Virus record (IMG/VR): IMGVR_UViG_3300049793_000366
Location: 248,865 to 312,864 of that record
Direction: 5' to 3' (one strand)
Origin: a virus
DNA length: 64,000 nt
The notes beneath the pieces are model-generated. The model ran no database searches. It saw nothing but the letters and a program-made list of their open reading frames with translations, and had not been told where the DNA came from. Positions 31,761 to 57,473 of this stretch are shown here, in pieces; the first letter of the stretch is position 1; the number at the start of each line of letters is the position of its first letter. A program made the position numbers and the translations under genes.

Positions 31761-31792
31761 ATTTGGTAGTCCGGTATTTATTTACTATATTT
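31761..31792 (+). promoter_or_regulatory. Strong Bacteroidetes-type promoter
   Basis: TTTGG (31761-31765), 19 nt, TATATTTG (31785-31792). It shares extended identity (GGTA-x-TCCG-x-GTATTT) with the promoter at 49563, more than the host consensus requires. Confidence 0.85.
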
Positions 31793-34562: not shown

Positions 34563-35024
34563 ATGACAACACGACCATTTATTTTATATTTTAGCTTCAT
34601 GCTTACATTTTTAGCACTCGCTATATTTGTACACCCGTTATACACGATAGGCTGTGCTGTACCGGCAGTTGTACTCACTATTATGGAGTTTATAATATGC
34701 TCTGATTCTGATGATAGTAAAATTTTTGCGTTTGTCTATATTGGTAAACTAAAAAGGGTGAAAACAGAATTTAGTAGATTCTATGTAACCGTCAATAATA
34801 AAAAACGTTCTGTTTTATATCAAGATAAGTTTTTTTATATGAAAAGTATATCATATACAGGTTTTGAAAATATGGATAAGCTAAAGGAGTGGGTGAAGCA
34901 TAATGTTGAATATACTTGTTCAAACATTAAAGCTAAATCAGATTTAAAGAAGGAATTGATGTTATGGAATGGCCACATTGATAAACAGGTCGAAAGAAAT
35001 GAAAAATTAAACGAAGTATTATGA
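34563..35024 (+). CDS. Two-helix membrane protein with C-terminal tag
   Basis: 153 aa. Two adjacent hydrophobic helices (about 6-24, ILYFSFMLTFLALAIFV; and 28-46, IGCAVPAVVLTIMEFII), then a soluble domain with KRV/KRS strand patterns, ending RNEKLNEVL, a good tag copy. The tag would be cytoplasmic if the helical hairpin has both ends inside. It overlaps the PurA start by 4 nt (ATGA). Confidence 0.75.
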   Translation: MTTRPFILYFSFMLTFLALAIFVHPLYTIGCAVPAVVLTIMEFIICSDSDDSKIFAFVYIGKLKRVKTEFSRFYVTVNNKKRSVLYQDKFFYMKSISYTGFENMDKLKEWVKHNVEYTCSNIKAKSDLKKELMLWNGHIDKQVERNEKLNEVL

Positions 35025-36295
35025 AGGTAGATGTACTATTAGGATTGCAATGGGGTGACGAGGGAAAAGGAAAACTTGTTGATTTTATAACTCCGAATTA
35101 CGATATAATCGCGAGATTTCAAGGTGGTGCTAATGCTGGTCATACACTTATATTCAATGGTGAGAAACACGTATTACATTTGATACCATCTGGTATTTTC
35201 AGAGATAATTGTGTGAATGTTATTGGTAGTGGTGTAGTTATCGATCCTATATCATTAAAAGAAGAAATACAAACATTAGAATCATTTGGTATAGATGTTA
35301 AATCTAAACTTCTGATTTCAAGAAGAGCGCATTTGATATTACCGACACATAGACTTTTAGATAAAGCTTCTGAGCAATCAAAAGGTAAAAGTAAAATTGG
35401 TTCAACACTTAAGGGAATTGGACCAGCTTATATGGACAAGACTGGTAGAAATGGAATTCGCGTTGGTGATATAAAGAATGATAGTAAATTAAATTATCAG
35501 AAGTTAGTTCAAAAACATTTGGATTTATTATCTATCTATGAAGATTTTGAAATTGATGCAAATCAATATGAAGCAGAAGAATTAAAATGGTTTGATGCTA
35601 TTGAGTTCATTAAATCATATAATATTGTTGATGCTGAACATTATATTAATAAAGCACTGAGTAATAGAAAGACTGTACTTGCTGAGGGCGCACAGGGTTC
35701 TATGTTAGATGTTGACCATGGTACATATCCATTTGTTACATCTTCCAACACAACAATCTCTGGTGTTTGCTCTGGTCTTGGTGTATCACCACACGCAATT
35801 GGTAACATAACTGGTATATTCAAAGCGTATGCTACTCGCGTTGGTTCTGGTCCATTTCCTACTGAGCTTGATAATGAAGTAGGTGAAAAGATGAGAAGTA
35901 TCGGTGGTGAATTTGGTGCTACGACAGGTAGACCAAGACGCTGTGGTTGGTTAGACCTACCAGCATTGAAATATGCTATAATGATTAACGGTGTTACTGA
36001 GTTAAATATGATGAAACTTGATGTACTCAGTGGATTTGAAACTATACAAGTTTGCACTGGGTATCAAATTGGTGATGAAATATTTACAGAAACAATTCCA
36101 TTTGATTTAAGCACTGAGATAAAACCAATATTGAAAGAATTCAAAGGTTGGAATGTGGATATCACGGCTATTAGAAATTTCGAAGACTTACCTCAACTTG
36201 CTAAGGATTATATTTCATTTATACAATTGGAAACCAATAAACCAATCACTCGTATATCTGTTGGTCCCGACAGAACACAGACTATTATGAGATAG
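35021..36295 (+). CDS. purA: Adenylosuccinate synthetase
   Basis: 424 aa, full bacterial length. N-terminal GLQWGDEGKGK (8-18) with the catalytic Asp13 and P-loop; GGANAGHTL with catalytic His; STLKGIGPAYMDKTGRNGIRV; EGAQGSMLDVDHGTYPFVTSS; ATRVGSGPFPTEL; GRPRRCGWLDL; SVGPDRTQTI. It makes adenylosuccinate from IMP, GTP and Asp. The Asp13 and full length argue against PurZ, the phage 2-aminoadenine enzyme. Last gene of the early operon from 31822, coupled to the membrane protein by ATGA. Confidence 0.95.
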   Translation: MKVDVLLGLQWGDEGKGKLVDFITPNYDIIARFQGGANAGHTLIFNGEKHVLHLIPSGIFRDNCVNVIGSGVVIDPISLKEEIQTLESFGIDVKSKLLISRRAHLILPTHRLLDKASEQSKGKSKIGSTLKGIGPAYMDKTGRNGIRVGDIKNDSKLNYQKLVQKHLDLLSIYEDFEIDANQYEAEELKWFDAIEFIKSYNIVDAEHYINKALSNRKTVLAEGAQGSMLDVDHGTYPFVTSSNTTISGVCSGLGVSPHAIGNITGIFKAYATRVGSGPFPTELDNEVGEKMRSIGGEFGATTGRPRRCGWLDLPALKYAIMINGVTELNMMKLDVLSGFETIQVCTGYQIGDEIFTETIPFDLSTEIKPILKEFKGWNVDITAIRNFEDLPQLAKDYISFIQLETNKPITRISVGPDRTQTIMR

Positions 36296-36349: not shown

Positions 36350-37510
36350 ATGATTATTAACTTAAAATCAAAAACAGATTTATCTGGTATCTACGTTGTT
36401 TACACTGGGTCTACAAACTTAGAAAAAGCAGGATGGTACGGACTATCACATTTAATGGAGCATTTAATGTGTAAAACTTTCGACCATTTACAAGAAGAAT
36501 TTGACCAAGACGGTATCGACTGGAATGCTTGGACATCTGACAACGAGATTGTATTTTATCTAACTGGTTTAGATAAGAAAATCGAGAAGTGGAAATATAA
36601 ATTTGTAGAGTTACTTGGTAACTTCACAATTACTGATGAACAGCTTCAAAACGAAAAGCGAATTGTACTTGAAGAGTATATGGATTCGTTTAACGGTCAA
36701 GCTGAAGCACACTTTCAGAATCTATCAAGAAAAAAGTTCGGTCACTACTCACCAATTGGTTTGAGAAAAGACATCGAGAACACAACTCTTAAAGACTGTA
36801 AAGACTTCTTCGACTTACAGTATGCTAAGCCAACTAAAATTATCAATGTATCAGCTAAATCTAAATTTGATGCTGATGTAGAGTTTTCAACAACTGAAAT
36901 AGCACCAGATTATAAATTCGGTGATTATGATGTAGAACTTGAGTTAAATAACGACTTCAAAGACAAAACATCAATTATCATGTTAACACCATTAATCGAA
37001 GAAGACTTCGCTTATGTTAACATCATCACTGCTATGTTGGGTTATGGTTTGAACTCACCTTTATATCAAGAAGTTCGTGAGAACAGAGGATTGTGTTATT
37101 ACATATCAACTTATCAATCAAGAATGTTTGATAAAGGTATCGTTAGTATCTCAACAGTAACATCTAATGCAAATGCTCAAGCTGTTATTGACACGGTTAA
37201 AATGGTATTAGCAGATCCGGATAAATATTTGACAAAAGAAAGGTTGAATACGATTATCGAGAACATGAAAGTTCGTAAGAAGAAATCAAAAATCAATCGT
37301 TATAACAATGTTTATAAATGGATTGGACCGAGTGAGTGGTCAAATGATGATATAATTGATACCATCAAATTAAAAGACATCAAGAAAGTATATAAAAAAT
37401 ACTTCAACCCTGATATGTTATACATATCAAATGATAAAACCGAATTCACTACACCAAAAGAATCAAAAGCTAAAAAGGCACCAGCTAAAAAAGTTAAAAG
37501 TGCCCAATAG
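36350..37510 (+). CDS. M16 (pitrilysin-like) zinc peptidase
   Basis: 386 aa. Inverted zinc motif HLMEH (H34-E37-H38) in GLSHLMEHLMCK, with a downstream ligand Glu in NEKRIVLEEYMD (101-112). The second half contains the M16 C-lobe pattern LGYGLNSPLYQEVRENRGLCYYIS (residues about 230-255). M16 members degrade or process peptides inside a clam-shell chamber; this is a one-repeat version that would dimerise. Codons resemble the highly expressed 31822 gene. Ends in a Lys/Ala/Pro tail like the protein at 46-441. A phage M16 peptidase is uncommon. Confidence 0.88.
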   Translation: MIINLKSKTDLSGIYVVYTGSTNLEKAGWYGLSHLMEHLMCKTFDHLQEEFDQDGIDWNAWTSDNEIVFYLTGLDKKIEKWKYKFVELLGNFTITDEQLQNEKRIVLEEYMDSFNGQAEAHFQNLSRKKFGHYSPIGLRKDIENTTLKDCKDFFDLQYAKPTKIINVSAKSKFDADVEFSTTEIAPDYKFGDYDVELELNNDFKDKTSIIMLTPLIEEDFAYVNIITAMLGYGLNSPLYQEVRENRGLCYYISTYQSRMFDKGIVSISTVTSNANAQAVIDTVKMVLADPDKYLTKERLNTIIENMKVRKKKSKINRYNNVYKWIGPSEWSNDDIIDTIKLKDIKKVYKKYFNPDMLYISNDKTEFTTPKESKAKKAPAKKVKSAQ

Positions 37511-48787: not shown

Positions 48788-49510
48788 ATGGATTTTTCTG
48801 TTAATTATTACCTAGTGTTGGGTGTCTCCAATAAATCTACGGATAAAGAAATAAAGCTTGCTTATTACGATAAGTCAAAGACGCTTCACCCAGATAAAGG
48901 TGGGGATCCGGAAGAGTTTAAAAAAGTAGCTGAAGCCTACAAAGTATTATCTTCAAAAGAAGGTCGATTAGAATATAATAAGAAATCAAAATTCGGAAGT
49001 GATTACGAAGAATTGTGGGACTTATTAAACTTCGAGTTCTCAAACATCAACAAAGTTTACGATAAGGATGGATTAGATAAATTCAAGAAGAACGAAATTC
49101 TTGATATTGTCTATACAATCGATGATACCTTCAATGGTAACATAGAATATGAGCGTTGGATTACTTGTAAAACGTGCAATGGTTCTGGTGGTGTCGAAGG
49201 TAAGTTCGCGATTAAAGATGCGTCAGGTAAAGTTATAACCAATTTACAGACAGGTGATGAATGTGACTTCTGTGAAGGTTCTGGTAAACAAATGTGGGAT
49301 GGTCAAGAGTGTTCATATTGTAATGGTAAGGGTAAATTCAGCTCTGTCGCTTGTAGTTCGTGTAATGGCCAGAAAAGAATTCTATTTAAAGAGCGATTTA
49401 AAATATCACCCAATAAGATAAGTTCGGACAAATTTAGGGTGGATTTCCGAGGAAATCAGTCTAAAGATGGTAAAATAGGTCACCTTTGGTTGGTTAAGAA
49501 GAAACTTTAA
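48788..49510 (+). CDS. DnaJ-like co-chaperone, shortened
   Basis: 240 aa versus about 370 for DnaJ. J-domain with HPD (34-36) in KSKTLHPDKGGD; no Gly/Phe linker; a zinc-finger domain with four CxxC pairs (127-130, 159-162, 175-178, 189-192), each followed by G or NG; then only the start of the substrate-binding domain (DKFRVDFRGN, GHLWLV). It would recruit host DnaK. Behind a late-type motif, so it may assist virion assembly. Confidence 0.9.
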   Translation: MDFSVNYYLVLGVSNKSTDKEIKLAYYDKSKTLHPDKGGDPEEFKKVAEAYKVLSSKEGRLEYNKKSKFGSDYEELWDLLNFEFSNINKVYDKDGLDKFKKNEILDIVYTIDDTFNGNIEYERWITCKTCNGSGGVEGKFAIKDASGKVITNLQTGDECDFCEGSGKQMWDGQECSYCNGKGKFSSVACSSCNGQKRILFKERFKISPNKISSDKFRVDFRGNQSKDGKIGHLWLVKKKL

Positions 49511-49562
49511 TTGACTGATAATCAGCATTTTAGCAATTATTTTTAATTTTAGGACGAAAAAA

Positions 49563-49594
49563 TTTGGTAATCCGAGTATTTCATCCTATATTTG
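49563..49594 (+). promoter_or_regulatory. Strong Bacteroidetes-type promoter of the T9SS cargo gene
   Basis: TTTGG (49563-49567), 19 nt, TATATTTG (49587-49594), extended identity with the promoter at 31761. ATG at 49629. Confidence 0.85.
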
Positions 49595-49628
49595 TATTAT
49601 AAATTAATAATAACTTAAATCAACTACT

Positions 49629-50201
49629 ATGAAAATGCTAAAAAGTCTACTTATCGTTTTAATGACAGTTTTAACTGTTAATTCATTCTCTCAGACTGTT
49701 CATACTTTTAACTATACCGACAATGGTATGACTTTCACTTGTAATTCCGGTGATACCGTATTATTCTATAATAATAGTGGTGTTAATGTGTATGCAATAT
49801 CTGTTGATGGTGGTTCTCCTATAACTGGTGTGACCTCGAATGGTTCATTTGCTACTTATAAGTATGTAGTTCCAGTAACAGCATCAATGACTCACACGTT
49901 AGTAATGGCTACCGCTGGTGGTAATAGCACATCATATTGGAATGTCACTTCTATTACAACGGGTATTAGTTCACATAGTTCTCTTGAAACTAATATTAGA
50001 GTGTTCCCTAATCCTGTTATTGACTTCTTAAATATAACAACTCCTATTGACGCTACTCTTAAATTATACAATATCAATGGTCAATTAGTTATGACTGAGA
50101 AAGTAACAGAGGGTGATAATAAAATTTTTGTTGAAAATTTAGCATCTGGTATCTATATCGCTACGGTGAATAGTAAAGTTGTTAAGTTAGTCAAGCCGTA
50201 A
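49629..50201 (+). CDS. Secreted protein with type IX secretion (T9SS type A) sorting domain
   Basis: 190 aa. Signal peptide MKMLKSLLIVLMTVLTVNSFSQ split after SFSQ (22 residues), typical of Flavobacteria. Residues 23-115 form a small Ser/Thr-rich beta domain (FTCNSGDTVLFYNNSG near 36-51, faintly cupredoxin-like). Residues 118-190 are a T9SS type A C-terminal domain: RVFPNP (124-129), LKLYNINGQLV, LASGIYIATV, final KVVKLVKP. Such domains send proteins through the outer membrane and anchor or release them. It is a stand-alone unit with its own strong promoter and terminator. Likely alters the infected cell surface. Confidence 0.9.
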   Translation: MKMLKSLLIVLMTVLTVNSFSQTVHTFNYTDNGMTFTCNSGDTVLFYNNSGVNVYAISVDGGSPITGVTSNGSFATYKYVVPVTASMTHTLVMATAGGNSTSYWNVTSITTGISSHSSLETNIRVFPNPVIDFLNITTPIDATLKLYNINGQLVMTEKVTEGDNKIFVENLASGIYIATVNSKVVKLVKP

Positions 50202-50230
50202 TGAGTGTGTGTATCGTGTATGTCAAAGAC

Positions 50231-50259
50231 AAAAAAGGGAGATAATATCTCCCTTTTTT
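50231..50259. terminator. Bidirectional Rho-independent terminator
   Basis: AAAAAAGGGAGAT / ATCTCCCTTTTTT, 13-bp perfect stem with a 3-nt AAT loop (50231-50243, 50247-50259), T-runs on both strands. It ends the T9SS cargo gene rightward and the 2131-aa gene leftward. Confidence 0.92.
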
Positions 50260-50266
50260 GTTTCTG

Positions 50267-53200
50267 TTATTCTGGTATTATGAAAACTGCTATCTCTATT
50301 TCTACATCTATTGGATTGAAACCACCACCACTTCCTGGTGCTGATACTATCGAGTCAGTACTTAATACGACATTATCAATGAATGAGAAGTTCTGGTTAG
50401 TATAATCAATATATGGAGCTACCGCAGTGTATGGTATCTGTAAACCATAGTTAATATTAGATGCTGTCGCATTCGTATATTTATAGAACGGTATCATGTC
50501 TACCTCATAGAACTTTAGATTATCTAATACAGCAGAGAAAGATCCACCGATGTACATATCCATATCAACTCTATTATAGAAATATTCCATTTTTTTCATT
50601 GTTGGATCTGGATTACTTCTCACTGGATTATGCTGATACATATACGCACCATCTATATCAGCATTGAAGTATAAATTTTCCAATGGACCTATTGGTATTA
50701 CAACTTCAAATCCTAATATTATAATGGTTATAAATTCAACTCTATTACCATACATATCACCACCATATATTCCAGCAGTACCAGACCAAGTATAACTATC
50801 AAACTCAACCATTGTGTATCTACCAATTTCTAAACTATCCAATATAGAATCATGTGTTAGTATTGCTAAGTTACTCTCATCAGTTGAGAAAGATACTCCT
50901 TTTGGTTTTGTATTATTTGGATATCCATCCATTATGAATAATGCTGGTTCGCTAATACCATCCACTAACGATGGATTAGTTACATCTTGATATAATGCCT
51001 TACTAAGAGTACCATAAACATTAGATACTGTCCAACCATACGTGTAGATGTTTGGTCTGTTGAATTTGGAAGCTCTATCAATAAAATCGACATATGTATT
51101 ATACTTATAACCTAAATTATAATCTCTAAATGTGAGTGAATTACTATCACGCATATTAGATACTGATTCTAAAATATCACTTGTAATTAAACCTTGATAG
51201 TTTGTTCTAGTATATTCATTACCACTATCATCTAATATAATTTGGTCAAAGAAAATATTAGATACATACTTAGTATCATAATTGATATCCATCCAAGAAT
51301 TATATAAATGTGTTGTTGATGTTGTAGCAACGTCCATATCTTTGAACTTCATCTTCTGAATAACAGATGTAGAAACAGTTCCAGTTTGAGTAGCTATAAA
51401 TCTACCACCTTCGAAGCTACCATCTATCCAGTGTGTCTTATCCATCACTGTTAAGAAAGGGAATCCAGCAAATAACCCTGAATTCCAAATACCAGTAAAC
51501 TTACCATTTAAGAAAGCACCTGATAACCAAATATTCTTACTGACATGAATTTTATGACTCTCTGAATCTTTAACAATTTCATGTATAGGGAAATTAACCA
51601 TTGCTTCAACAGTTAAACTTCTCGATGTTGGATTAGAAACAATTGTATAGTAACCTCTTATTAGTTTTCTTCTCTCATTAATATCATGTGATGTGACGTT
51701 ACTAATAGAAACAACATCACCAGCAGTTAAACCACCGAATGTTGCACCAGTAACAGTAAATTGCCATCTACTGCGTGTTATTTGAATACAGCGAGTAACA
51801 TCATCTAATTCAATATATGATGATGCAGTAGCGTATTGTACACCGCCTATTATGCTTGTAGTATCAACTCTCCATCCATTATTCCAAACACCATTTTCCC
51901 AAACACCACCTAAGAATCGGCCATTACCAGCTTTTGTTCTGATACCTTTACCACTAACTGTTGCTGAGTATGTCCAGCTACCATAGCTTGGTAATGGACC
52001 AACTGTACCTACAATTGAACCAGAACCATAAACGATTGGTGTGTTCAATATGGTATTATTCAGTGTACTATATGTGCCTGTTGTGTTGAACGCATTCCAT
52101 AAGTGTAAATTGGTATTTGTTGCCGAAGTATCAATTTTTACGTAGTTTAATATTTGATGCGCTCTTAATAATAACTCAGTTGTTTCTTTTGAGTATGTTC
52201 CAATATTTCCACTGCCGTTTGATACGCTACCAACTATATAGTCAGAGCCATACCAGTTACCATTTTTCCATGTACCATCTTTCCACACTATATTCCTTGC
52301 GAAACCATACCACCAAACACCATCTTTCCAGAAAGCACCAGACATTGTACCATTTTTCCATAAACCATTCTCCCAACATGAATATGCGAATTCACCATCA
52401 TTCCATATACCGTTATTCCAGTAACAAGATTGTGTACCATATTCAAATGTACTCATTGTAGCATTGTTAGCTTTATATGAGTAACCATCAGAACCTAAGT
52501 ATGTATCTACACGATAGTCAGTTCTTGACAACGGTGTTGGTAGTAAACCACCCGCTGTACCGTAAATATAATTTAAACTCAATGGGCGAAGAACAAACGG
52601 ATTGAAATAACCATTTGTCCATGTACCATTCTTCCAAACACCATTCATCCACATAGAGTTAGTGAACTCAGCATTAGAGTGGTCTACTGTACCATTTATC
52701 CATTTGACATTTTCGAATAAAACTTTGTTGTTATTCTTAACTTCATCCTTACGTCTAATTAATGTTGTGAATAATTTCTTATCCTTATTTAATTTTCTTG
52801 TATCATCGATTACAGTTCCATTTACCCAAAGACCTCTGAAAGAAGCAGTAGGATTCAAGAAGAAGTTATTGAATTGTGTCTTACCAGCAACAGCAGAAAA
52901 AGTAGCTGCGTTACTTGTAAATGTACCTTTCATAAATACACCATTCTTCCAAACTTTACCTTGAAATCTACCATCGTTAAATGAACCATCAGCCCAAGAT
53001 GAATCAAATACACCATTGTTGAAATTACCATTATGCCAGTTAGTAATAAAGTTATGTCGAACTTCATCAAATGGTGCATATGTTAATTCACCTTGTGTAA
53101 TAATCTGTGCGTGGTCGAAGCTATAGCCATCGGCTCCGAAGTAACCATTATTGAAGTTACCATTCATCCAGAACGCGGCATTTCCTTGAAAATAACCACC

Positions 53201-56200
53201 ATTAAAGTTACCGTTTTTCCAAACAGCGAAATTCTTAAATATGGCCCCACTTTCCATAACAGATGAATTACCAAATGGTAAATCAGTTATTACTACTGAA
53301 TATGTTCCTGTCTTCTGAACACCTGTAATTACAGCCGCATCATTATATGATGTGTTTAATGAATCAGAGAATTTATTAATGAATATTTTAGATCCGGTTC
53401 CGTAAACACCATTATCAACATTTGTAGAATCATTAATAAATAATCCTAAATTACCAGACACATAACTTGTGTCAATCCAATAGACTGGTGCTGGTGAATT
53501 TCCTTGAAATATACCATCATTAAATTCTCCATTCTCCCAAATAAATGTATCTAACCACGTAGAACCCAGTGTAGCATTTCTAGCAACACCATTATACCAA
53601 TGACCAGATAACATAGAATTCTTCTCTATGCTAAATCGAGTATCACCGAATTCACCATTATAGTGATTACCAAAATACCAATATGTATTATAAATTTTAC
53701 CATTTAGCTTATCACCATTATACCAAATACTGTTGTACATTTCTCCATTTTCGAATGTACCGTTATGCCATGTATAACCATAAGGAGACTGCATCCAGCT
53801 TCTATATAAGACAGGATTTACCGGATTAGTAGTCCAAGTCCATACGATTGGTTCAAAGTCACCAGTAGCGTTCTGATTCGTTGAGTCAGCGAAAATACCG
53901 TTCTTAAATATACCACTATTCCACATAGATTGCTTTATCAATCCATTTGTAAATGTACCCTTAACCCAATATGAGTCATAAACTATACCACTTGTAAATG
54001 TTGGATAGTCGAATACACAATTGTAGAAAATACCTGATTTGATATTGGTATTATTACCAAGTCTTGTTTGCTTGAAGTATGTGCCATTAACTGCATCATA
54101 ATATTGAGAGTCAACATCAGTTACATCAGATGTGAATAAGAAATTAATTACTTTAAGTGTATCAACATTAGTTCTAACAAGTGATGTATCAAAATTATTA
54201 AAGTTTCTATTCGCTATCGTAGAGTTTTTGAAGAATGTTCTTGCAAATACACCAGACTGTACAGTTGACTTGTTTATTTTTACTTTACTAATACTTAAGA
54301 AGTTTGGCATATTCATACCGAAGTAACTACTTATGTTACTAGGGTTTGTAGTAGCATCATATGTATAGAAGAAGCCTGAGTTAAATCCATAATTAGTTTG
54401 GATTAACAATCTTGTGTTATACATAGTATTTAAGTTAGTAATTGCCTCAGAATCTAAAGCATCTAAATATAAAACTCTCGTTGAGCCAGAGAATGCCATT
54501 GTTGTAACAGTATAAGCACCATTCAATGAATATGCTTGTGTCGTTTCAGACATAGTAGCAGACATAGGATCAGGACTTGAAACTGGAATCCAAACAATAT
54601 TATCTAAATAAATAACATCACCTGGTGTGAAGTTATTATCTAACCAACTCGTATTAAGAGCTGAATATTTTAAATTTATCTGTAATGATTGTGTTGAACC
54701 AACTGAAATATCCAATTGATTATTAGCATTCTGACTAACTTGATAGTTGTAGTTATTAATTAAGTTACCATACTCCCATGTTGAGTTATCCATGTAGCCA
54801 GATTCATACTCAGCATCAATAATATATGGTGTTTCAATTACATCAAGTCTATTGAATTTCAATACCCAATCATACCACTGTTTAGCAGTAGTAATTGATG
54901 CTATGAATCCTGGGAAATTATATTCCATAGTGATATCCAATGACGGCTTCTCTATGTCAGCAACCTGTGTTGTAATTGGTAATACAAGTCCTATTCCAAA
55001 GAATGTGAAGTACGCAAATGTAGTTTCATCTCTCACTGTGTTTTCAGCCGCAGTTTTAACAACGCAGTTAATTTCACCAGCCATTGAAGCACCACTGAAC
55101 ATTTTTATTTCTTCGTTGTACTTATTTAAGTAAAATACATTTTCGAACTTATCGAATGTTGCATCCTTGTCAAATTTAATACCCTTTAAATAGAAAGATT
55201 CAAGGTTTGATAATTTATGAATATCTGTTTCATTGATGTATAGCTTATATCGAACTGTTTGCTTACCGTCTATCGTTGTGTAAAAGAATTTACTAATATC
55301 AGTTATAACAATAGATGAATCGGCTTTGAATTTTGAATTAGATAAAACTGATTTAGAAATATGTGAATTCAAAACACTTGAATTTGAAAACTTACCTTCT
55401 AATACATTAGTTGATTGAACCTTTACGTTTGAATAGTTACCATTGTAAATAAATGAATCAGCTATTTTACCACTTTTGATAGTAACATCAGTTGAGAATG
55501 TAGTTCCTGTTATATAATTTGGTACAGCAGAAGCAGTGTATGATAATTTACCCAACTGTGCGTTAATGAAGTTACCATTAGTAACTACACTTGATTGTAT
55601 AGAACAGTCAAGGAAATAATTATAACCATTCCCTCTATTATTTGATTTATCTGTTGTTTGTTTTGCTAATCCATTATCAATAGTTGAATAGTAGGAGTCC
55701 TGTACAATAGAATCTGATAATGATTGAATATCACCTGATATCCAGTTAGTATTAACAGCAACACCAGATTGCCAAAGACTCTTTTCGTTTTTCTTCCAAT
55801 TAATTCTATTATCATATGAACCATATACACCATCTGACCAAGAACCATTAAATTCACCTCTTCTGAAATTTGATTTGGATATTATTGCTTCTCTGTATGT
55901 ATGATTAACCTTCCATGTCGCAGTAGGTGAATCAAATTCATATACAAACGATGTTTTATAATCAGTAGCATTACCACTACCATTGATATGCGTAAAATCA
56001 TTACCCATAACAACTACGTTACCAGATTGACTTGCTGAAACATATGTATTGATATTATTAATATCGTATATGTTAGTCATATTAAACCAAGAGTATGTTC
56101 CTGGTGTAGGCTCATTCAATACATAAAATCCAACACCTACGTTTCCGAATATTGTTGAGTATGTACCATTTGAGTATAAGATGTTATCTAATCCAATTTC

Positions 56201-56662
56201 AAATCTGTATTGTTCAGTTGATGTTGAATTTACTCTCACTTGAGATAAATATAAAGCTTCACTATCAGAAAAACAGCTCCAAACTTTAATGTGTTCATCA
56301 AATTTAGTTTCATTCCAAGGTAGTGCGTCATTATAATCCAAGTCAATAGTGATTGCACACTTATCAATTTTTAAGATTCTATAACCATCGTTACCTGCTC
56401 TATATCTGTCTTTCTTGACCTTATCATTAGAATCGTAGTTACCATTTATAATGAATACTCTGTCACCAACTACTAAGTTGGTATTTACTTCAGTATAAAT
56501 CTTAGTTTTAGCAAATCCACCAATTTCATCCGGTTCTATAAAGTTTATTAATCTTGATGAAAACTTTCTCGATTTTCCTGATATAGAAGTTAGTGATGCA
56601 ATTGAGGCGGATGCGCTTAATATTAGATTTCTAAGAGAACTTGAATTAAGTGTAAGAGCCAT
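50267..56662 (-). CDS. Giant NG-repeat structural protein (2131 aa)
   Basis: 2131 aa. Non-repeat N-terminus (1-210), then many short repeats of the form W-x-N-G-x-[FWY]-x-[ND]-G-x-[FWY] (e.g. WKNGNFNGGYF, WMNGNFNNGYF, WENGIWNDGEF), dense at about 260-300 and 900-1750, interrupted by beta-sandwich-like inserts (about 480-850, 1560-1700). A C-terminal 300 residues resemble a carbohydrate-binding beta domain. The 5-residue spacing suggests a solenoid comparable in principle to pentapeptide or MORN-like repeats. No transmembrane or signal segment. Most likely a long tail/baseplate appendage or virion surface protein. Confidence 0.8.
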   Translation of the reverse strand: MALTLNSSSLRNLILSASASIASLTSISGKSRKFSSRLINFIEPDEIGGFAKTKIYTEVNTNLVVGDRVFIINGNYDSNDKVKKDRYRAGNDGYRILKIDKCAITIDLDYNDALPWNETKFDEHIKVWSCFSDSEALYLSQVRVNSTSTEQYRFEIGLDNILYSNGTYSTIFGNVGVGFYVLNEPTPGTYSWFNMTNIYDINNINTYVSASQSGNVVVMGNDFTHINGSGNATDYKTSFVYEFDSPTATWKVNHTYREAIISKSNFRRGEFNGSWSDGVYGSYDNRINWKKNEKSLWQSGVAVNTNWISGDIQSLSDSIVQDSYYSTIDNGLAKQTTDKSNNRGNGYNYFLDCSIQSSVVTNGNFINAQLGKLSYTASAVPNYITGTTFSTDVTIKSGKIADSFIYNGNYSNVKVQSTNVLEGKFSNSSVLNSHISKSVLSNSKFKADSSIVITDISKFFYTTIDGKQTVRYKLYINETDIHKLSNLESFYLKGIKFDKDATFDKFENVFYLNKYNEEIKMFSGASMAGEINCVVKTAAENTVRDETTFAYFTFFGIGLVLPITTQVADIEKPSLDITMEYNFPGFIASITTAKQWYDWVLKFNRLDVIETPYIIDAEYESGYMDNSTWEYGNLINNYNYQVSQNANNQLDISVGSTQSLQINLKYSALNTSWLDNNFTPGDVIYLDNIVWIPVSSPDPMSATMSETTQAYSLNGAYTVTTMAFSGSTRVLYLDALDSEAITNLNTMYNTRLLIQTNYGFNSGFFYTYDATTNPSNISSYFGMNMPNFLSISKVKINKSTVQSGVFARTFFKNSTIANRNFNNFDTSLVRTNVDTLKVINFLFTSDVTDVDSQYYDAVNGTYFKQTRLGNNTNIKSGIFYNCVFDYPTFTSGIVYDSYWVKGTFTNGLIKQSMWNSGIFKNGIFADSTNQNATGDFEPIVWTWTTNPVNPVLYRSWMQSPYGYTWHNGTFENGEMYNSIWYNGDKLNGKIYNTYWYFGNHYNGEFGDTRFSIEKNSMLSGHWYNGVARNATLGSTWLDTFIWENGEFNDGIFQGNSPAPVYWIDTSYVSGNLGLFINDSTNVDNGVYGTGSKIFINKFSDSLNTSYNDAAVITGVQKTGTYSVVITDLPFGNSSVMESGAIFKNFAVWKNGNFNGGYFQGNAAFWMNGNFNNGYFGADGYSFDHAQIITQGELTYAPFDEVRHNFITNWHNGNFNNGVFDSSWADGSFNDGRFQGKVWKNGVFMKGTFTSNAATFSAVAGKTQFNNFFLNPTASFRGLWVNGTVIDDTRKLNKDKKLFTTLIRRKDEVKNNNKVLFENVKWINGTVDHSNAEFTNSMWMNGVWKNGTWTNGYFNPFVLRPLSLNYIYGTAGGLLPTPLSRTDYRVDTYLGSDGYSYKANNATMSTFEYGTQSCYWNNGIWNDGEFAYSCWENGLWKNGTMSGAFWKDGVWWYGFARNIVWKDGTWKNGNWYGSDYIVGSVSNGSGNIGTYSKETTELLLRAHQILNYVKIDTSATNTNLHLWNAFNTTGTYSTLNNTILNTPIVYGSGSIVGTVGPLPSYGSWTYSATVSGKGIRTKAGNGRFLGGVWENGVWNNGWRVDTTSIIGGVQYATASSYIELDDVTRCIQITRSRWQFTVTGATFGGLTAGDVVSISNVTSHDINERRKLIRGYYTIVSNPTSRSLTVEAMVNFPIHEIVKDSESHKIHVSKNIWLSGAFLNGKFTGIWNSGLFAGFPFLTVMDKTHWIDGSFEGGRFIATQTGTVSTSVIQKMKFKDMDVATTSTTHLYNSWMDINYDTKYVSNIFFDQIILDDSGNEYTRTNYQGLITSDILESVSNMRDSNSLTFRDYNLGYKYNTYVDFIDRASKFNRPNIYTYGWTVSNVYGTLSKALYQDVTNPSLVDGISEPALFIMDGYPNNTKPKGVSFSTDESNLAILTHDSILDSLEIGRYTMVEFDSYTWSGTAGIYGGDMYGNRVEFITIIILGFEVVIPIGPLENLYFNADIDGAYMYQHNPVRSNPDPTMKKMEYFYNRVDMDMYIGGSFSAVLDNLKFYEVDMIPFYKYTNATASNINYGLQIPYTAVAPYIDYTNQNFSFIDNVVLSTDSIVSAPGSGGGFNPIDVEIEIAVFIIPE

Positions 56663-56711: not shown

Positions 56712-57473
56712 ATGTTTATAGCTACCAACCTAAAAATATTTCTAATGGCACTGTTACCGGCTATAACATACGGTATGGTTATCTTTATATCATCTCGATA
56801 TAAGTCAATTTCAATCAAAAAAGGCTTAGGTTACTTTGCACTCGGTGCTATTTCGGTCACTTTCGTTAATGCCTTTCAATTTACTTTCCCGTACTATCAG
56901 GATTGGGTTTTAAGCGAATCCATGCCTATTACAACACTATTATTCAAAGCTATATTACAAGTAGCGTTATTAGAAGAGCTGTGTAAATTAGCATCATATA
57001 GATTCATTGACTCAGTAAGGCATCGAATTGAACTCAGACGAGATAAACCAGTAGCTACTATGTTCTATGCGTGTATGGTGTCTGCTGGGTTCGCGGTTAT
57101 AGAGAATCTTCATTATGTGATGGCTTTCTTTGATAAAGTAGCACCAAGTGAGTTATTATTAACAAGAGCTTTGAGTGCTGTAATTGTACATATGGTTTGT
57201 GGGTTATTTATGGGCTATTTTATAGCACTTGGTAATTTAAAGGGTGATATTGATATTTCCGCTATTTCAATCATTCTAAGAAAGAATCCTAGGTGGAGAA
57301 AAACACTATACACGACAATTGGTGTCAGTGTTGCTATTCTATATCACGGTATATACGATTTTATGGCTTTCTTGGGTGCCAATTTGTTTAATATCATAAT
57401 TGTCGGACTCTTGATTGCTTATATAATGCATAAACAATTGAATTCCATATCAGGTGTCAGAAAACTTCGATAA
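56712..57473 (+). CDS. PrsW-like intramembrane metalloprotease
   Basis: 253 aa with about eight membrane segments. PrsW signatures: LLEELCKL (E88-E89-x-x-K92), AGFAVIENLHY (E131, Y135), IVHMVCGLFMGY (H160) and YHGIYDF (H212, D216). PrsW cleaves the anti-sigma factor RsiW in Bacillus (site 1), and relatives belong to the CPBP/Abi-like superfamily. In a phage it could cut a host anti-sigma factor or a membrane defence protein. Divergent from the giant structural gene; the intergenic TTATATATAAAT resembles the late motif. Confidence 0.85.
   Translation: MFIATNLKIFLMALLPAITYGMVIFISSRYKSISIKKGLGYFALGAISVTFVNAFQFTFPYYQDWVLSESMPITTLLFKAILQVALLEELCKLASYRFIDSVRHRIELRRDKPVATMFYACMVSAGFAVIENLHYVMAFFDKVAPSELLLTRALSAVIVHMVCGLFMGYFIALGNLKGDIDISAISIILRKNPRWRKTLYTTIGVSVAILYHGIYDFMAFLGANLFNIIIVGLLIAYIMHKQLNSISGVRKLR

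Follow-up and report, generated by a model that had tools for sequence, protein, structure and literature searches.

A candidate type IX secretion cargo gene in a moron-type cassette of a 508-kb megaphage

Phage-encoded type IX secretion cargo and the present locus

Cargo proteins of the type IX secretion system (T9SS) are already known to be encoded by phages. Cryophage encodes cargo with T9SS type A sorting domains, which varies between phage variants and for which superinfection exclusion has been suggested (Bellas et al. 2020, PMC7468147). T9SS-domain proteins are also encoded by cluster 2 of the BACON-encoding phages, whose predicted hosts are Bacteroidetes; the part of that report considered here places their genes near head genes and together with BACON domains, and that part describes no cassette anatomy (PMC6949934). 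Surface-localized proteins of huge phages have been noted in general (PMC7162821). In bacteria, the type A cargo proteins RemZ and NucA of Flavobacterium johnsoniae (PDB 8GLJ, 8GLK) are encoded on the chromosome, and their export was shown by experiment. Once exported, type A cargo has one of two fates: release, or linkage to lipopolysaccharide (LPS) at the surface (PMC10994853).

We analyzed a 64,000-base stretch of viral DNA (hereafter the window), which spans bases 248865-312864 of a virus record 507,910 bases long. The record has a terminase-like gene at 75636-76091 (record coordinates) with an open frame of 725 codons, and phage-type replication genes for DNA polymerase, primase, and SbcC lie within the window. 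The gene of interest encodes a 190-residue protein with a type A sorting domain. Whereas the Cryophage cargo comprises an endoglucanase, a GH39 protein, and a PA14 protein, the present cargo has a small, cupredoxin-like passenger and belongs to a 508-kb megaphage, in which the cassette also has a defined empty site and same-slot homologues. As far as the literature shows, the new elements are a cassette whose empty site is defined, the patchy distribution of this cassette among megaphages, and the cupredoxin-like passenger. The original prediction had described a stand-alone unit of promoter, gene, and bidirectional terminator, and the coordinates it gave are right. The features are as follows.

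48788-49510, + strand: left flank, dnaJ-like gene with a DnaJ domain and zinc-finger-like repeats (Pfam); adjoins the giant gene in relatives too
49563-49594, + strand: putative Bacteroidota-type promoter, TTTG-N20-TATATTTG (pattern search; the homologous genes of L003 and L004 are preceded by this motif as well)
49629-50201, + strand: predicted T9SS type A cargo gene, 190 aa (ORF; PF18962 and TIGR04183 above cut-off)
49629-49691, + strand: predicted cargo signal peptide, residues 1-21, MKMLKSLLIVLMTVLTVNSFS (hydropathy scan; 48-67% identity with two homologues)
49692-49964, + strand: cargo passenger domain, residues 22-112, cupredoxin-like without copper ligands (two-way profile comparison with bacterial cupredoxin-T9SS proteins)
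49965-50198, + strand: T9SS type A sorting domain, matched residues 125-189 (domain profiles; C-terminal K186 and K189 conserved)
50227-50263, either strand: putative bidirectional hairpin terminator common to the cargo gene and the convergent giant gene (17 pairs, T runs on both strands)
50267-56662, - strand: right flank, giant 2131-aa WxNG-repeat protein (ORF); conserved beside dnaJ in relatives

The sorting domain had been predicted from short motifs, and profile searches bear this out. The cargo C-terminus matches Pfam PF18962 (E 8e-12, 45.7 bits; curated cut-off 27) and, over residues 125-189 of 190, NCBIfam TIGR04183 (E 3e-11, 43 bits; curated cut-off 23). The match sits at the extreme C-terminus of the protein and is the sole T9SS type A sorting domain in the whole 508-kb record. 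This C-terminal domain (CTD) also matches the CTDs solved in the SprA/PorV translocon (PDB 8GLJ and 8GLK), sharing with the F. johnsoniae cargo the sorting domain family and a conserved C-terminal lysine, although the passengers differ. In an alignment of phage and bacterial CTDs, the PNP motif, an Asp, a G-x-Y motif, and two C-terminal Lys are invariant. A near-invariant Lys close to the CTD C-terminus contacts PorV (PMC10994853), and one of the two invariant cargo lysines should correspond to it. Structure models of the cargo built from the single sequence reached pLDDT values of 39 and 35, too low for use on the seven-stranded beta-sandwich fold of the CTD. PADLOC gave no defence-family match for the cargo.

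The cargo N-terminus has the strongest N-terminal hydropathy peak among all ORFs of the window, which agrees with the signal peptide claimed originally; we take it to be of the Sec type, a call made from the hydropathy scan only. TTTG-N20-TATATTTG is a known form of Bacteroidota promoter, and four such sequences occur in the window compared with 0.17 expected from shuffles. This agrees with the description of the promoter as host-type. Its form is not unique to the cargo gene, as three further TTTG-N19-21-TATATTTG promoters lie at 31762, 43262, and 57480, in each case on the + strand; the first and last of these three are directly upstream of ORFs. Downstream of the gene, the RNA of 50195-50275 is predicted to fold at -24.6 kcal/mol (z = -5.4), consistent with the terminator that had been proposed. 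By sequence, the cargo gene thus has its own promoter and its own terminator, as a moron does.

Elsewhere in the window, the + strand gene at 35021-36295 has a PHROG name suggesting a base-modification enzyme; we rejected a reading as phage PurZ, as NCBIfam identifies it as PurA (adenylosuccinate synthase). The region 36350-37510 (+) encodes an M16-family peptidase (insulinase type), and a membrane protein with weak similarity to the intramembrane protease PrsW is encoded at 56712-57473 (+), adjoining the giant gene. Rfam found no family in the window.

The dnaJ/giant-gene slot in related megaphages

A tblastn search of 50,697 phage records yielded two full-length homologues of the cargo, both in curated genomes of huge phages: one in LR756502 (642 kb, 32% identity) and one in LR745206 (635 kb, 28.5%). 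Genomes above 634 kb were predicted to replicate in Bacteroidetes and placed in the Mahaphage clade (PMC7162821), in agreement with the host phylum that the original prediction had drawn from the sorting domain. In all three phages the cargo gene lies between the dnaJ-like gene and the giant WxNG-repeat gene, in convergent order, and the same promoter motif stands upstream of it; in LR756502 a small ORF intervenes between promoter and cargo. The giant protein contains many WxNGxF-type repeats, its C-terminal part is conserved, and its gene is split in two in both LR756502 and LR745206. It has no family match above cut-off and is possibly a structural or adhesion protein.

To survey the slot, we used the two flanks as anchors in IMG/VR and obtained 15 further distinct relatives with both flanks. 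In 12 of the 15, dnaJ and the giant gene abut (gap of -8 to +28 bp), compared with a 756-bp gap in the window. The other three (L020, L022, and L023) have different content of 654-1132 bp, which includes a 221-aa protein in L020 and two similar nucleotidyltransferase-looking genes in L023; that of L022 is unassigned sequence. Because the slot is empty in 12 relatives and differently filled in 3, promoter, gene, and terminator appear to be gained or lost as one unit, which is the anatomy of a moron; because other content occupies it in three relatives, the slot may be an insertion hot spot. Judged from its sequence, then, the unit at 49511-50266 is a moron-type promoter-gene-terminator cassette of patchy distribution. 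Scans of IMG/VR with the cargo proteins gave no further homologue, an absence that is weak evidence since short exact peptides were used.

We also considered whether the phages that carry the cargo form one clade. The SbcC-like tree rejects a grouping of its two carriers, the window and LR745206 (p-AU 0.010). A single clade of all three carriers is nearly rejected by the dnaJ tree (0.06), and the giant-gene tree is uninformative on this point (0.17). On these trees the carriers seem not to be a single clade, and the history of the cassette would be either ancestral presence with repeated loss or repeated gain or exchange.

Other phage proteins with export signals occur in related megaphage contigs. 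Nucleases with signal peptides are encoded in L041 (863-1555 bp upstream of dnaJ), L021 (14532-15338), and L052 (1501-2241); they belong to the DNA/RNA non-specific endonuclease and the endonuclease/exonuclease/phosphatase families and may be exported scavenging or anti-competitor enzymes. Because such secreted nucleases lie close to the same dnaJ gene in L041 and L021, we favor a wider pattern of exported phage proteins. T9SS-tagged or T9SS-like proteins are additionally found in L010 and L011 (both LR756501, 735 kb), L008 (LR745206), and L043-L047. The L010 protein has its sorting domain in mid-protein, followed by a Fib_succ_major domain, and the L043 protein has a cohesin domain.

The passenger domain and bacterial cupredoxin proteins

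The three parts of the cargo are conserved to different degrees. Among the three phages, identity is 48-67% in the signal peptide and 31-38% in the sorting domain, compared with 14-23% in the passenger, and the passengers of LR756502 and LR745206 are pairwise no more alike than shuffles. We built a profile from the three phage middle domains alone, without either end, and ran it over 395 Bacteroidia genomes. Matches at E <= 0.01 occurred in 7 of the 395, which is near chance level. The best match (E 0.001 per genome, weak over 395 genomes) is a 205-aa protein composed of a signal peptide, a plastocyanin-family (cupredoxin) domain that matches PF00127 above cut-off, and PF18962. Its layout and size are those of the phage cargo, though the query had neither end. 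That cupredoxin domain is present in 72 of the 395 genomes, mostly in open frames of ~200-220 aa.

We then compared the two groups in both directions. A profile of 26 bacterial cupredoxin domains ranked the phage domains 2, 3, and 7 among 1595 targets, including 692 decoys and 900 shuffles; in the reverse search, the first 18 places of 1238 targets were all taken by the bacterial cupredoxin-T9SS family; and hhalign gave a probability of 88% for the phage passengers against that family. As this comparison was seeded by our own best hit, its figures are not fully independent and amount to moderate evidence. Pfam finds no PF00127 match in any of the three phage proteins, and in the alignment all three lack the copper ligands (His, Cys, His, Met). 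The small Bacteroidia cupredoxin-T9SS proteins (e.g., L135/L147) thus resemble the phage cargo in size (~195-210 aa), in the order of their parts, and in the profile of the middle domain, but they keep copper-ligand residues (His, and in many Cys and His with a downstream Met), whereas the phage proteins do not. On the strength of these comparisons, we think it likely that the passenger is of host origin and is cupredoxin-like but copper-free, a beta domain whose probable ancestors are small Bacteroidia proteins with this layout. Because the copper site is lost, the passenger would most likely act by binding rather than by redox chemistry.

Several other similarities were set aside. Residues 22-100 match proteins of rV5-like Salmonella and Cronobacter phages (E 0.07-0.7), which we attribute to chance; the protein of PVP-SE1 lacks a signal peptide and bears no other resemblance to the cargo. 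WD-repeat matches in the PDB are an artefact of the short NGQL motif, which is repeated in each blade, and Pfam TcfC and other weak matches fall under cut-off.

Export and possible purpose

Taken together, the sequence features make it quite likely that this is a cargo exported via the host T9SS and carried on a moron. In an infected cell, transcription would start at the Bacteroidota-type promoter of the cassette. Sec would then carry the protein across the inner membrane, and its type A CTD would pass it on to the SprA/PorV translocon of the host for export. The original prediction went further in stating that the protein is probably displayed by the infected cell. This is not supported as stated; with both release and LPS linkage open to type A cargo, display on the surface is possible rather than established. 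Receptor masking, superinfection exclusion, and altered adhesion, the roles it put forward, would likewise be speculative.

What the phage would gain is a more speculative matter. In Flavobacterium columnare, mutants in the T9SS-associated gld and spr genes resist phage (PMC9233685), so T9SS-dependent surface features appear to matter for phage entry, and a surface change directed against competitors is for this reason a natural guess. The most likely purpose, held tentatively and with rather less than even confidence, is that the cargo changes the infected cell's surface or its surroundings, for instance so as to hinder competing phages. A passenger linked to LPS or to the surface could mask or modify the receptor of such phages, and superinfection exclusion of this kind has also been proposed for Cryophage (PMC7468147) and likewise for huge-phage surface proteins (PMC7162821). 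The cassette has its own promoter and terminator and is inserted between conserved genes, and its passenger diverges fast relative to the sorting domain, a pattern expected for a protein engaged in an arms race. The same divergence, however, also fits relaxed selection, and type A cargo may simply be released. A released cargo might instead act away from the cell as a community or nutrient factor, accessory to extracellular scavenging by infected cells. The Endonuclease_NS and Exo_endo_phos proteins with signal peptides near the same dnaJ gene and the T9SS-tagged proteins elsewhere in relatives would fit such a role, but the passenger has neither an enzyme match nor copper ligands, and we regard this as somewhat improbable.

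Another reading is that a host gene was captured by chance and is drifting without benefit to the phage. Its patchy presence, with the slot empty in most relatives, the loss of the copper ligands, and the near-random similarity of two of the passengers are all in line with such a history; yet promoter, signal peptide, and sorting domain remain recognizable and the frame remains open in three deeply diverged phages, which makes a gene of no use to its carrier unlikely. Conservation of the two ends but not of the passenger could alternatively mean that the passenger sequence hardly matters, the cargo merely occupying SprA/PorV and thereby cutting the export of T9SS-dependent receptors. The phage resistance caused by gld and spr mutations in F. 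columnare is compatible with competition for the translocon, but it is not obvious that a lone cassette driven by one host-type promoter would be strong enough, and we consider this quite unlikely. Returning to action against competing phages, it is possible, though we would not call it likely, that Mahaphage-type megaphages keep an export-cassette slot in which a copper-free cupredoxin passenger diversifies between a retained promoter and signal peptide on one side and a retained T9SS tag on the other, such that a rapidly changing viral protein is presented or released through the host T9SS, probably against competitors.

The use of the T9SS by phages can be tested here with one cloned gene, as the gene is small and self-contained and T9SS mutants of F. 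johnsoniae exist; the reported phage resistance of gld and spr mutants suggests a direct assay. The link to cupredoxins with a lost metal site would provide a concrete example of a secreted host protein that was captured and put to viral use. If export is real, the virus commandeers the outer-membrane secretion machine of Bacteroidota and changes what the infected cell shows or releases.
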